Part shown: positions 2,891-61,975 of the stretch, piece after piece | Layout: every line of letters begins with the position of its first letter | Numbering within the stretch: position 1 is the stretch's first letter | Assembly (NCBI GenBank): GCA_903939735.1 | Contig: CAJAIA010000041.1 | Coordinates: 1-64,000, forward strand | DNA from: an uncultured Ignavibacteria bacterium | GTDB taxonomy: Bacteria; Bacteroidota; Ignavibacteria; Kapaibacteriales; Kapaibacteriaceae | DNA length: 64,000 nucleotides | Reading direction: 5' to 3' | Position numbers and translations under genes: made by a program | Notes under the pieces: model-generated | The model's database searches: none | Seen by the model: the letters and a program-made list of their open reading frames with translations, nothing else | What the model was told of the DNA's origin: nothing

Positions 2891-3282
2891 TGCCCTGCCC
2901 CCGTTTGTTAGTCCATCGGACGTGTTATACTCATGAGCACAACCTACATTCTTCTTGAAAGGCATGCCTTCCCGTCAATTGAAGCCGTTTGCCCGCGATG
3001 TACGAGCCCTTACGTGCAATGACGCCAACTGGGCTGCAAATACGACATCGCCCCTGCTTTCACGATCAACAACACTCGTTGTGGAGTTGCCAAGACACAT
3101 TGAGCCCACTAAATGCGATAAAGGGGGCACTTCTCTCTCCACTGAACGTCTAGTTATTGCATGTGAAGAGCACTGCAATATCTAAATCAAGCGCGATCTG
3201 CACATCCGTGTGACGCTTCCGCCCCATTCCGGGCTCTCTTCGCGAAGCAAGCTTTCGTTTCAGTTGGTAGTGGAGCAGGTCA
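2891..3282 (-). mobile_element. Internally deleted, non-autonomous IS3-like element (~392 bp)
   Basis: 3033-3282 is a diverged copy of 277-542 (e.g. AAGACACATTGAGCCCACTA...GGGGGCACTTCTCTCTCCACTGAAC...GTTTCAGTTGGTAGTG). Outer ends TGCCCTGCCCCC (2891, +) and TGACCTGCTCCA (3282, -) form imperfect terminal inverted repeats. No transposase core. Confidence 0.6.
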
Positions 3283-3302
3283 GGGGCATGTCATCGCAAT
3301 TT

Positions 3303-4568
3303 TTAGTTCGTAACAACAAAGAATCGTGTAAAATCGCGTCCGCTGCTGGTTCTCACTTTGACTGAGTACATTCCAGATGATAAACTGCTCGTGGGAATCA
3401 GCCAGTCTGAGAATGGAGCAGAAGGTCCATTGCCACTATGAACCAGCTTGCCTGTATTGTCAAAGATGAAGACCGTACTCTGAGCTGCCTCTACTCCGCT
3501 TAAAGTGATTCGAACCGCGTTATCACCCTGAGCAGTTTCGACCGTAAGGACAGCCCGATCTGATAAAGAACGTTCTGCTTTCACGCTCTGTTTTGCAAAT
3601 GATGGATCTTCTAATGTGGAAATCCACCACAGCGTATCTTGTCGGTGATAACTGTTGCAATTCGAGCTGAATCGAGTGTCTGGAAGGCTACCAAGGTATG
3701 CATTGTATGCGTTTTCAAACCCAGAAGGCCAACTTCGTAATCCGATAAGAGTTGCCGTGCAGCCGTTGAGCGCCAATGCTGCCGCGTGTGCGACTAGTAA
3801 AGATTGCATTTGAGCGGCACCCACAGTATCATTGGTGAGTGAGTCCAACCAACGAGGATATTGGTTAGGGAATGCCCTATCTGGCTCTTGTTCGTAGAGA
3901 TATCCGAGATTGTAGTCCATGGCAAACTTGCGATGAACAATCCCGGCTGCAGTTGCGCCATATCTGTACGGCACTGCCCGAACGAATGCAACTCTGCCAT
4001 TACAACTATCGGGGATTGGGACCATTCTTATGCTTACATCCGGCGCTGTGCCATACCGCAGTGCTATCGGGTTTGGACCACCATCATGCACTCCAACCGA
4101 GTCCATCGTTGCAAGCACGGTGCCGGTAGCAGAATCTACGAGTTCTAGGAGAAAGACAGTCGTGTCTAACAATCGTCCCGTTCCTGTTGTCCATCTGACG
4201 TCAGACCAGCTATGAGTTACAAGACTTTTAATGTCGGCCTGGGGCAGCGAGCCAATTCTGTTGCTCGTAAACAGTCTAAAGAACTTCAAACTCGATGTGA
4301 TCGGTATCGTAAAGTTTCGAGTTTGAGCCGTGTTGTAGAAGGATACTATTCGACCTTTCAGAGAGTCTTCTGAGATTGAAGAACGGCCATCGGACAGCCA
4401 CTCTGCAACTGTCAGCGACAAGAAAATCGGGTGCGCGGTGTCCGAACTCACAACAGAGAATTCACCTACTGTGTATTCTACTTGGACGGAGTCGAACGTG
4501 TTAGTGTAGGAGATGTACCAGTTATGGCGCGCCCACTCTCTGCTAACGCTCGGCCGAATCTCCAGTTA
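3303..4568 (-). pseudogene. 5'-truncated T9SS-cargo-like secreted protein remnant
   Basis: C-terminus (VFIFDNTGKLVHSGN...SLSSGMYSVKVRTSSGRDFTRFFVVTN) is a T9SS sorting-domain type. Frame is open upstream of the ORF start to about 4568 (EIRPSVSREWARHNWYISYTNTFDSVQVEYTVGEFSVV...) but shows no signal peptide before a stop. Confidence 0.55.
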
Positions 4569-58006: not shown

Positions 58007-59536
58007 CTAATTCTGATGGACTGATCGACCAATCAAGCGCATCACACTGGCAGCGATGGACGGAAGCGTGTCGGAATACGTGTACATTGTCATCGTGGCG
58101 GGAAGCTGATCGATCCCATATGGGCTTCCACAGGCCACAACAATGGTCGGACGTCCCTGGGCGAGTTGTTCCATAACGTACGGGACGCGATCGAAACCCG
58201 GAAGCTTGCCCTTAAACGCCACGGCTTTGCCGAAGAATGCAAATACAACGCAGGTGGCATCACTGATGCCATCGACGAGCGATTGAAGATCCGATTCGGC
58301 GATTGTACCGTCGACGAAGCCCATGTCGATGTTGAGTTCCGTTGCTTGTGCAAGTGACTGGAACCATGTTGTAGCCGTATCGGCTTCTGATTCATCAAGA
58401 ATGGCGAATGCTGCAACATGCGGATGCTGGGTAATCGGCAGCAACGCGCTATCCCCTGTAACCTGCAGAGCAGCATCAGCTGCCTGCAAGGCTATCATTG
58501 CATGTGTAGCTTGGTCGATCGCCAACGGCTCGCGTGAGCTATATGCCGCGCCCGCCGTGGTGCGAAGTCCGACAAAGGCCCGCGCGTCTTCCCAGCGAGC
58601 GTCTGATGCATCAAGGTCGACACCGTCAAGATCGCCGCACTCGATCGCGTTCATCACTGCACCTATTGCCGCGTGTGGATCTTCTGGCATCAGCACAACA
58701 TCGACGCCAGCCTTGAGGGCAAGAAGTGCTGCCTCACCGCTGGACCAGCGAGTGCGAATCGCACCCATATCAAGTGCGTCGGTCGTGATCAGGCCCGTGA
58801 AGCCCCAGGAGGTGCGGACCAAGTCAGTTACAACGCGGCGGCTCAAGGATGAAGGAAGATCCGGATCAAGAAACGGCACGACGATGTGCCCCATCATCAG
58901 CGTCCGCACGCCCCCTTCGATACATGCGCGGAAAGGCACAAACTCGCGTTGCTCTGCTACGGCGCGATCGAGGTCAATCACCGGCAGATCTATGTGGGAG
59001 TCAACGTGGGTATCACCATGACCTGGAGCGTGTTTGGCACAGGCCAGGACACCGACGCGTTGCGTACCCCGGACATAGGCGCATGCGTGCTGTGCAACGA
59101 CGTCTGCAGTTTCACCGAAGCTGCGCGTATTAACAATCGGGTTGTTCGGGTTTGCATTGATATCGGCCACCGGAGCCCAATTCCAATGCACGCCAAGCGC
59201 ACGTGCCTCGTCGGCAATACACTGTGCCACATGCTCGGTGATTCCAGGAAGTGTTCTGCCCAGCGCCATGGCGCGAGGGAAGGACACACCGCCACTCAGT
59301 CGCATGGGGAGACCAAACTCGTAGTCCCCGGCGATCACAAGACGGCGACCGCCCCGGCGCTGAAGGTCCTCGATCATCGTGGCCGTCTCCTCAAGTCCAC
59401 CGAGGAAGACTCCGACGCCCCCTACCCCACGATCCACCAGGCGATAGAGACCGTCCCGGTAGTCCGGAGAATTCCAATGCTGCGCGTCCGCGCGTACCAT
59501 GAATCGTGCCGAAGCACGTCGTTCGAGTGAAGCCAT
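58007..59536 (-). CDS. GH3 beta-N-acetylhexosaminidase (NagZ-like)
   Basis: KHAPGHGDTHVDSHIDLPVIDLD (NagZ-type KHxPGHGxTxxDSH); FTGLITTDALDMGAI. Confidence 0.9.
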   Translation of the reverse strand: MASLERRASARFMVRADAQHWNSPDYRDGLYRLVDRGVGGVGVFLGGLEETATMIEDLQRRGGRRLVIAGDYEFGLPMRLSGGVSFPRAMALGRTLPGITEHVAQCIADEARALGVHWNWAPVADINANPNNPIVNTRSFGETADVVAQHACAYVRGTQRVGVLACAKHAPGHGDTHVDSHIDLPVIDLDRAVAEQREFVPFRACIEGGVRTLMMGHIVVPFLDPDLPSSLSRRVVTDLVRTSWGFTGLITTDALDMGAIRTRWSSGEAALLALKAGVDVVLMPEDPHAAIGAVMNAIECGDLDGVDLDASDARWEDARAFVGLRTTAGAAYSSREPLAIDQATHAMIALQAADAALQVTGDSALLPITQHPHVAAFAILDESEADTATTWFQSLAQATELNIDMGFVDGTIAESDLQSLVDGISDATCVVFAFFGKAVAFKGKLPGFDRVPYVMEQLAQGRPTIVVACGSPYGIDQLPATMTMYTYSDTLPSIAASVMRLIGRSVHQN

Positions 59537-59620
59537 GGATAAAATTACCATCAATTCGTGGCTTCAGGTGTAACACGCCGGCGCGTTCTGCGTCAGTACC
59601 TCTGTAGTTCGAGGGGTGTA

Positions 59621-60217
59621 ATGGGAATGGGGATCACACAACAACAGCGACGGGCCTTGGCAGATGAAACGCCAGACCTTGAGCTGTATGCTAAACTGGC
59701 ACATGAAGATGCGCCGGCGCAGGCTGCGTTGTCGATCCTCTACCGTCGTTACAGCCAGCGTATCTACACGTATTGTCGGAAGATTATCGGAGACTCCACT
59801 ACCGCTGAAGATCTCTTGCAAGAGACCTTCGTAAAAGTGCTGGAGTCTGGGCGTCAGCAACGCGCCATCGAGAACTTCCCGGCATACCTCATGACGATTG
59901 CGCGAAATCTGTGTTTGTCGCACCGAGCTCGTTCAAAGCGTCAATTCGTGGAGGTCGAGGACTTTCATCTCTCCTACCGAGATGTTCCCTACGAGCAACG
60001 CGAACTCTTGCAGCTGATTCAGGCATCGCTTGAATTGTTGCCGGAAGATTATCGCGAGGCTTTTGTGCTTCGCGAGTACAATGGATTGTCTTACAACGAG
60101 ATTGCCGAGGTCATTGGCGAATCACTGGATGTGGTGAAGGTGAGAATCTTTCGTGCTAAGAAGAAACTGCGCGACATTCTTGCACCGTATCTGGCCGATC
60201 TCCACTCCAAAGCCTAG
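59621..60217 (+). CDS. ECF RNA polymerase sigma-70 factor
   Basis: IYTYCRKIIGDSTTAEDLLQETFVKVLE; LPEDYREAFVLREYNGLSYNEIAEVIGESLDVVKVRIFRAKKKLRDIL. Confidence 0.92.
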   Translation: MGMGITQQQRRALADETPDLELYAKLAHEDAPAQAALSILYRRYSQRIYTYCRKIIGDSTTAEDLLQETFVKVLESGRQQRAIENFPAYLMTIARNLCLSHRARSKRQFVEVEDFHLSYRDVPYEQRELLQLIQASLELLPEDYREAFVLREYNGLSYNEIAEVIGESLDVVKVRIFRAKKKLRDILAPYLADLHSKA

Positions 60218-60235: not shown

Positions 60236-61399
60236 ATGCCTATGAACGAGTTTCCGCTAACCCCACTTCAGCCAGACGAAGCGCTTTACGCGTTTCTTGA
60301 TGGTGAGCTTCAACAACATCACGAACAGCCTCTCTTCGATGAGCTAGCGGCACAACCTGAACTCCGAACGGAGATGAAGGACCTTTTAGCAATTCGCAAT
60401 GCTGTGCATCGCGATGCGGTGTTCCCTCCTCCACAAGCAGATATGGGGCTTGCACCAATCCCACTCGCCGCAGCAGCTGGTGCCGGTGCATCGACAAGCG
60501 CTCTTTGGCCATCGGTCATCAGTGGAATTGGTGGGGTGATTGTCGGCGCTGTTGCCGTTGCATTGATGATGTCAAGCGGTGATCAAACACCGCCAGTGGC
60601 ATCGAATGGAATCGCCGGACAGACGGCAACGGCACCTGAGCGTGTCGTCGTTGTCGATACGGTTATCGTTACACGCCGCGTGCCTACGCCTCCGACGGTT
60701 GCTGCAGTTCCACCTCCTACAACCGATGTTTTCGCATCCGAACCATCCGACGACGCTAGTTCTGTCGAACCTGCGACAGCACCGGAATCCAGCGTCATCG
60801 CATCGGTGCAGCCGCTACGTGCTTTTACACGCACAGCAAATGCATCAGACCAAACATTCCACACTGCATCAACTATCGGACAGCCTGTAGCGCCGTTGCC
60901 AGTTAGACTTGGCTTCCGTTCCCTCGCAAGTGGTCTATCGACCGGCGAGGCAGTTCCAAGCAGCGTCCAATCGGCACTCCTTCCGAACACGGCGTTCTCG
61001 CTTACGATTCCATTGGCCGACGACCATCGTATCGGCGTCGAGATGGGATCTGAATCATTCGTACAGTCGTTCACCGGATTCGATGGCTACCGCACGGCAG
61101 AATGGCTGCAGACACCAGTCTTGTTCTGGCTCGGAGCAACATACGTCTTCGAACCAATGTCGCTTGAGTTCCTCCCTGGGCTGCGTCCGTTTGGCAATGC
61201 TTCGGTTGGCACGGTGTTCGCACAAGGACCGATCGCCCGCGGAACTGTTGGTTTGGCGTATCAACCAATTGGACCAGTACGGCTTACCGTTGGGGTCGAC
61301 GGAGCTGCTCTGATGTATAATTTCCAGGGTGCATGGTTCTCATCGACTAAGCTCGGGTTGTCGTACGGACTTACCATCGACATGGGAGGTTGGAAGTAA
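60236..61399 (+). CDS. Putative anti-sigma factor with C-terminal beta-barrel-like domain
   Basis: N-term EALYAFLDGELQQHHEQPLFDELAAQPELRTEM (anti-sigma type), TM PSVISGIGGVIVGAVAVALMM, Pro/Thr linker, C-term ~170 aa beta-rich ending TKLGLSYGLTIDMGGWK. Confidence 0.6.
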   Translation: MPMNEFPLTPLQPDEALYAFLDGELQQHHEQPLFDELAAQPELRTEMKDLLAIRNAVHRDAVFPPPQADMGLAPIPLAAAAGAGASTSALWPSVISGIGGVIVGAVAVALMMSSGDQTPPVASNGIAGQTATAPERVVVVDTVIVTRRVPTPPTVAAVPPPTTDVFASEPSDDASSVEPATAPESSVIASVQPLRAFTRTANASDQTFHTASTIGQPVAPLPVRLGFRSLASGLSTGEAVPSSVQSALLPNTAFSLTIPLADDHRIGVEMGSESFVQSFTGFDGYRTAEWLQTPVLFWLGATYVFEPMSLEFLPGLRPFGNASVGTVFAQGPIARGTVGLAYQPIGPVRLTVGVDGAALMYNFQGAWFSSTKLGLSYGLTIDMGGWK

Positions 61400-61975
61400 A
61401 TGCGCATCGCAATTATGATCGCCGTTGGAGCAGTGGTGCTTCTGCATGCATGCAGTTCACCGCTGGACCTTGATGTCGATCGCACGAAGAACTATCCCGA
61501 CGGTGGAACGCACCCAACGCGACTGTCGCTGTATTACTACTTCGGCGATAGCGCCTACGAAGCTATTGTCACCGACACACTCCTGCTGAACAACATCTGG
61601 ATCGAACGCGGATCTACGCCGTATCGGATCACAATTCCTACCCTTGAGTTTCATCTTCCTGACACGATCCAGGCGAGTCCGCAATTCACGCCGTTTGTGC
61701 GAGCGTTTGCATTCTCAAGCACCAATGTATTGTGCGATGGACAGTTCACGACGTGCACCTCACCACTGACGTGGCTCGCTGGCGAGTATCTCAGTCAGCA
61801 GGGCACGTGGGAACCCTTCAAGTGGTCGACAGATACTGGCAACCGCCAGCTTCGCATCGCGTTTTACGATGTGCCAACAGAGCGGCTCATCAAGGCATCG
61901 CTCCAGATCTTGGTGGGAGATCCTGCACTCCCTCGCTACGCATCGTACCGCGCGTTAATCACGCTCGAGTACTAG
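61400..61975 (+). CDS. Lipoprotein of unknown function
   Basis: MRIAIMIAVGAVVLLHACSSPLDLD lipobox; last gene of the sigma/anti-sigma operon. Confidence 0.7.
   Translation: MRIAIMIAVGAVVLLHACSSPLDLDVDRTKNYPDGGTHPTRLSLYYYFGDSAYEAIVTDTLLLNNIWIERGSTPYRITIPTLEFHLPDTIQASPQFTPFVRAFAFSSTNVLCDGQFTTCTSPLTWLAGEYLSQQGTWEPFKWSTDTGNRQLRIAFYDVPTERLIKASLQILVGDPALPRYASYRALITLEY

Follow-up and report, generated by a model that had tools for sequence, protein, structure and literature searches.

A putative trans-envelope anti-sigma factor of the Kapaibacterium lineage, with the architecture of the Bacteroides Dma proteins and apparently unrelated parts

The window analysed here, a stretch of 64,000 nucleotides from an uncultured member of the Ignavibacteria, encodes an ECF sigma factor followed, after a gap of 18 bp, by a 387 aa protein that is likely to act as an anti-sigma factor and cell-envelope sensor, crossing the envelope as one polypeptide. 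It joins an anti-sigma domain to a predicted beta-barrel by way of a transmembrane helix and a long linker (Table 1). This architecture is already known and named, from the Dma proteins of Bacteroides; the version in the window appears to be made from unrelated parts. We lean towards the view that the Bacteroidota evolved trans-envelope anti-sigma factors on two or more occasions, using anti-sigma domains and barrels that are not related, and that the Kapaibacterium barrel is an exchangeable and expanded sensor module, present on at least two types of sigma/anti-sigma pair.

Table 1. Features of the sigma/anti-sigma operon and its surroundings, in window coordinates
Feature	Position	Strand	Basis
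Barrel-fused anti-sigma factor, 387 aa	60236..61399	+	Open ORF
N-terminal cytoplasmic anti-sigma domain (predicted), residues 1-66, LDGEL...LRxEM motif	60236..60433	+	Profile matches to RseA/DdvA
Single transmembrane helix, residues 94-112	60515..60571	+	Hydropathy; family-wide conserved position
Low-complexity periplasmic linker (predicted), residues 113-216	60572..60883	+	P/T/S/A/V content
C-terminal beta-barrel domain (predicted), residues 224-382	60905..61381	+	AF2, Foldseek, alternating hydrophobicity
ECF sigma factor, 198 aa	59621..60217	+	Pfam Sigma70_r2 and Sigma70_r4_2
Predicted ECF-type promoter, 5' of the sigma gene	59569..59594	+	Alignment of 7 orthologous upstream regions
Putative lipoprotein, 191 aa, third gene of the operon	61400..61975	+	Signal peptide; lipobox-like LLHAC
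GH3 family enzyme, encoded divergently to the sigma gene	58007-59554	-	Neighbour in all relatives checked

A sequence-only reading of this region had described a single ORF downstream of an ECF sigma gene; the frame is indeed open, and the peptides quoted from it are present. The sigma factor is identified by matches to two Pfam families (Sigma70_r2, E 3e-17; Sigma70_r4_2, E 6e-17), and the lipoprotein gene begins at the base directly 3' of the anti-sigma stop codon. As listed, the sigma ORF opens at a GTG at 59558, but the gene probably starts at the ATG at 59621, which is preferred because a conserved promoter-like element falls inside the longer ORF; this ATG is conserved in the alignment of orthologues, 3' of the element. 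Across the seven upstream regions aligned, TGTAACA and GTC are kept at a fixed spacing over a variable spacer, giving the consensus TGTAAC-N17-GTC, of which the version in the window is TGTAAC-N16-CGTC. From its conservation we take the element to be a promoter of the ECF type, at which the cognate sigma factor would act, with autoregulation presumed. The 5' end of the GH3 gene adjoins it. A genome-wide search with the motif found no enrichment (6 sites, against 22 for a reversed control pattern), and gives no support for a wider regulon. Two of the other sites precede genes for secreted-looking proteins.

The anti-sigma factor itself has no match in Pfam or NCBIfam. Its N-terminus carries the motif LDGEL...LRTEM, and when a profile of residues 1-66, built from 25 members of the family, was compared with the sequences of the PDB, the best match was RseA (1or7_C, E 0.0016), followed by DdvA (8rlz, E 0.011); RsiW was weak (E 1.1), and ribosomal eS7 proteins appeared from E 0.019 upward. 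The Pfam family RseA_N weakly matches seven of 26 family members, with a best E value of 1.4e-4. Hence the support for assigning this domain to the RseA type, drawn from profile similarity, is good but not overwhelming. The domain also varies with the neighbouring sigma factor: pairwise distances between sigma factors correlate with those between N-terminal domains (rho 0.63) and between barrels (0.51), and the partial correlations are 0.51 for the N-terminal domain when the barrel is controlled for and 0.30 for the barrel when the N-terminal domain is controlled for. This pattern fits a sigma-binding domain, with shared descent adding to the correlations of all three distances. The profile matches and the co-variation both speak for the earlier description of the N-terminus as anti-sigma-like.

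The single transmembrane segment and the Pro/Thr/Ser-rich linker of about 100 residues that had been read from the sequence both stand. The position of the helix is conserved across the family in hydropathy, and the linker has 104 residues, 66% of which are P, T, S, A or V. Among 48 members, the distance from the end of the helix to the start of the barrel ranges from 99 to 204 residues, with a median of 131.5 and none below 99, whilst the length of the barrel, unlike that of the linker, is near-constant. If each residue adds roughly 0.3 nm, a tether of 99 would extend to an estimated 30 nm or so, enough for crossing a periplasm. In the window protein the linker contains the motif VVVDTVIVTR after the transmembrane helix, of which D141-T142 (60656-60661) is invariant in 12 close relatives; standing in an otherwise variable linker, this is possibly a protease or partner site.

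The C-terminal domain, of about 165 aa, was modelled with AlphaFold2 from a 12-sequence alignment, giving an all-beta fold with a mean pLDDT of 84.8 and a pTM of 0.74; the full-length protein, run as a single sequence, gave an unusable model (pLDDT 34). DSSP marks 10 strand segments, read as eight long antiparallel strands. A beta-strand domain had been proposed from about residue 215: the model agrees with this, save that the beta region begins near residue 222. The leading Foldseek matches in the PDB are the N-terminal barrel of OprF, OmpG, FadL, NspA, OmpA and OmpW, with probabilities near 1 and otherwise modest scores (E 0.003 and above, TM 0.45-0.59 for the best small barrels, rmsd 7-8 A), and the best match in a library of viral structures, at E 2.6e-5, is annotated as an outer membrane protein. 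Averaged over the family, hydropathy alternates along the strands with hydrophobic residues outward (combined p < 0.0002 by permutation). The terminal F of a classical OMP C-terminus is present in 23 of 48 members; the window protein lacks it, its last strand being followed by MGGWK. None of 26 family members matches PF13568 (OMP_b-brl_2) at E 0.1. We take the C-terminal domain to be a predicted barrel of the outer-membrane type.

A soluble beta sensor in the periplasm, or close to the inner membrane, that never reaches the outer membrane might also give such a model. The structural similarity is modest, two of the best 50 PDB matches, the MS2 coat and an extrinsic chain of photosystem II, lie outside the membrane barrels, and a paralogue in the same genome bears a helical, repeat-like soluble domain in this position. 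However, the other 48 of these 50 matches are outer-membrane or designed transmembrane barrels, the strands alternate with hydrophobic residues outward, many relatives have the OMP-type terminal F, and the linker has been kept long, for which a soluble sensor close to the membrane would have no use. We therefore regard a soluble sensor as rather improbable. The structure prediction favours an outer-membrane-type barrel over a soluble periplasmic fold, and the proposed span from outer membrane to cytoplasm gains support from the predicted barrel together with linker lengths compatible with crossing the periplasm.

On the reading of the C-terminal domain as a barrel, the RseA-like domain would sequester, on the cytoplasmic side, the ECF sigma factor encoded with it, the one transmembrane helix would be the anchor in the inner membrane, a disordered tether of about 100-130 residues would span the periplasm and the eight-stranded barrel would be seated in the outer membrane. 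A trigger at the outer membrane, be it a ligand, failed folding or insertion of the barrel, or an altered distance between the membranes, would act via the tether, which would most likely become open to site-1/site-2 proteolysis. Once released, the sigma factor would drive transcription of its own operon, and with it of the downstream lipoprotein gene, whose product may be an effector or a feedback partner. Computation establishes the order of the genes, the architecture of the protein, the prediction of a barrel-type fold, the length of the linker, the promoter-like footprint and the synteny; in the scheme given here we infer the sequestration of the sigma factor, the insertion into the outer membrane, the release, whether proteolytic or mechanical, the nature of the signal and what the lipoprotein does.

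Of the better known systems, the class I anti-sigma factors RseA, RsiW and DdvA share with the window protein similarity of N-terminal sequence, a single transmembrane helix and an adjacent sigma gene. In RseA the periplasmic part is a small domain to which RseB binds, whereas the periplasmic side of the window protein ends in a predicted outer-membrane-type barrel. In the FecR-FecA system too, an anti-sigma factor relays to an ECF sigma factor a signal that comes from a barrel in the outer membrane; there the barrel, a TonB-dependent receptor, and the anti-sigma factor are separate proteins. The window system differs in being one polypeptide, with a small barrel, in an operon without a TonB-dependent receptor. 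This absence, along with the lack of a FecR match, led us to set aside cell-surface signalling of the FecR type.

The architecture is not a product of chance: homologues are found in 57 of 60 related genomes; those relatives that are named are Candidatus Kapaibacterium and Ignavibacteria MAGs, Kapaibacterium being placed in the Bacteroidota by the NCBI taxonomy. An ECF sigma gene lies within 200 bp upstream in 48 of 51 distinct full-length members drawn from the loci retrieved, and in two of the three exceptions (L027 and L029) a sigma ORF is found slightly further upstream. A scan of the collection with a 12-row alignment yielded 13 loci, and all 10 of these with a full-length gene (L033-L039, L041, L042 and L044) keep the order dehydratase, GH3, the sigma/anti-sigma/lipoprotein operon, thioesterase and threonine-aldolase-like gene, save that in L036 the outermost neighbour is absent where the contig ends. 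In 12 of the 13 a homologue of the lipoprotein gene follows the anti-sigma gene immediately, the remaining locus ending inside the anti-sigma gene; matches to the lipoprotein profile are also found behind anti-sigma paralogues. Judged by this synteny, the locus is a core one and vertically inherited. The source assembly is fragmented, with 45 contigs, which might suggest that an ordinary OMP gene had been fused to an anti-sigma gene through an error of assembly or annotation; this is refuted by the same fused ORF, in conserved synteny, in dozens of independent genomes, and its probability is close to nil.

Full-length matches, with both the N-terminus and the Kapaibacterium barrel, are confined to the same order. 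Sister orders of the class (L113-L121) have the same N-terminal domain and the same sigma clade with strongly diverged, OMP-like C-termini, several of which end in F, and none of which matches a barrel family above the Pfam cut-offs. Within the order, L122 and L234-L236 carry the Kapaibacterium barrel family on a different N-terminus, of the form ARxEAPVVSFEE in L234-L236 and related in L122, and stand behind sigma factors of a third lineage. The barrel and N-terminal modules appear to be exchangeable because these proteins pair the same barrel family with another N-terminus and sigma factor.

The genome of the window holds two paralogues that bear on the range of such proteins. One (L128/L002; G000:C9:43235-44368) is a second barrel-fused anti-sigma factor, with 33% identity and its own sigma factor, followed by a weakly similar lipoprotein ORF (E 0.006). 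The other (L129; G000:C6:76500-82000, ORF 2917-3786 in minus-strand numbering) has an ECF sigma gene upstream and shares the N-terminal domain, transmembrane helix and linker, with a helical, repeat or TPR-like C-terminus instead of a barrel. A 7.9-Mb genome of the order (G037) has 27 matching places, which suggests an expansion of sensors.

The Dma proteins offer the closest parallel. In Bacteroides thetaiotaomicron, Dma1 and Dma2 consist of an N-terminal anti-sigma domain, a transmembrane helix, a disordered tether and a C-terminal beta-barrel, and adjoin ECF21 sigma factors; the architecture was described as occurring solely among Bacteroidota, and deletion of dma2 leads to more vesicles only when its sigma factor, das2, is present (PMC13088901, which cites Pardue et al. 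PNAS 2024 on Dma1). A search of the literature available to us found no precedent from the Kapabacteria or Ignavibacteria. For comparison, we collected 23 Dma-type proteins through a barrel-family search in Bacteroidales, recognising them by architecture and by a NigD1/NigD2-like neighbour rather than against the BT genes; that the source order is Bacteroidales we infer from Mfa2 genes and the neighbours of the loci. Starting instead from the nearest sigma factors, whether in Bacteroidales or in one further family of the Bacteroidota, we arrived at FecR-type and short anti-sigma factors and at most one truncated barrel candidate. The Dma-type loci comprise a sigma gene, the barrel protein (PF13568, E 1.5e-17) and a NigD1/NigD2-like lipoprotein (NF051862, E 1e-6 to 3e-5, below its curated cut-off); their linkers are 118-201 residues long, and the barrel protein is matched in 42 of 119 genomes of the presumed Bacteroidales order.

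The window protein thus resembles Dma in its anti-sigma domain, one transmembrane helix, long tether, barrel, adjacent ECF sigma factor and three-gene operon, all within the Bacteroidota, whereas sequence homology is undetectable in either domain: in hhalign, a profile of 26 Kapaibacterium sequences met the 23 Dma-type proteins with a probability of 0.5%, and of less than 3% for each domain. The N-terminus of the window protein is RseA-like, that of the Dma-type proteins short and unclassified, with no match to any anti-sigma family; the Dma-type barrel belongs to PF13568 and that of the window family lies outside it. In the sigma tree, the window sigma groups with relatives from the same class (support 0.94), outside the clade of the 29 Dma-adjacent sigma factors. 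The third gene is NigD-like in the Dma-type loci but not, by profile, in the window, where the lipoprotein has no NCBIfam match and hence no NigD-like one. On its architecture, then, the window protein would work like Dma; common descent was tested for, and none was found.

A single ancestral operon in the ancestor of the Bacteroidota, both domains of which have since diverged past recognition, would make the window protein a true Dma member, and would account for the identical four-part plan and the three-gene operon with a lipoprotein in third place in one phylum. A Pro-x3-aromatic motif, loosely Dma-like, stands in the third type of N-terminus, that of L234-L236 and its relative in L122, and the undetected homology may reflect divergence, given the rapid evolution of barrels and of short anti-sigma domains. 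Against this, the profile comparison is silent in both domains, the sigma factors fall into separate groups, and only the window family has an N-terminal profile that matches RseA. We consider descent from a shared operon unlikely, and that a Dma-like plan was probably assembled independently in the Kapaibacterium lineage. If independent assembly is right, a single polypeptide tethering the outer membrane to RNA polymerase would not be peculiar to Bacteroides; it would be a general solution at which the phylum had arrived more than once, and the conserved minimum length of the tether, the barrels that appear to be exchanged and the lipoprotein encoded alongside would pose a testable question, namely whether a ligand, the assembly of the outer membrane or the distance between the membranes is sensed.

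Some minor observations arose from the searches. In Bacteroidales, an ORF of L172 (2036-3415 in minus-strand numbering) has a Dma-like N-terminus and a transmembrane helix behind an ECF sigma factor, with a C-terminus resembling a domain of the secretion or gliding-motility type, not a barrel. Two Kapaibacterium-type loci with conserved synteny come from records titled Bradyrhizobiaceae (L041; JAGFIZ010000121.1) and Melioribacter (L043; CAMCXP010000092.1), names that look wrong.
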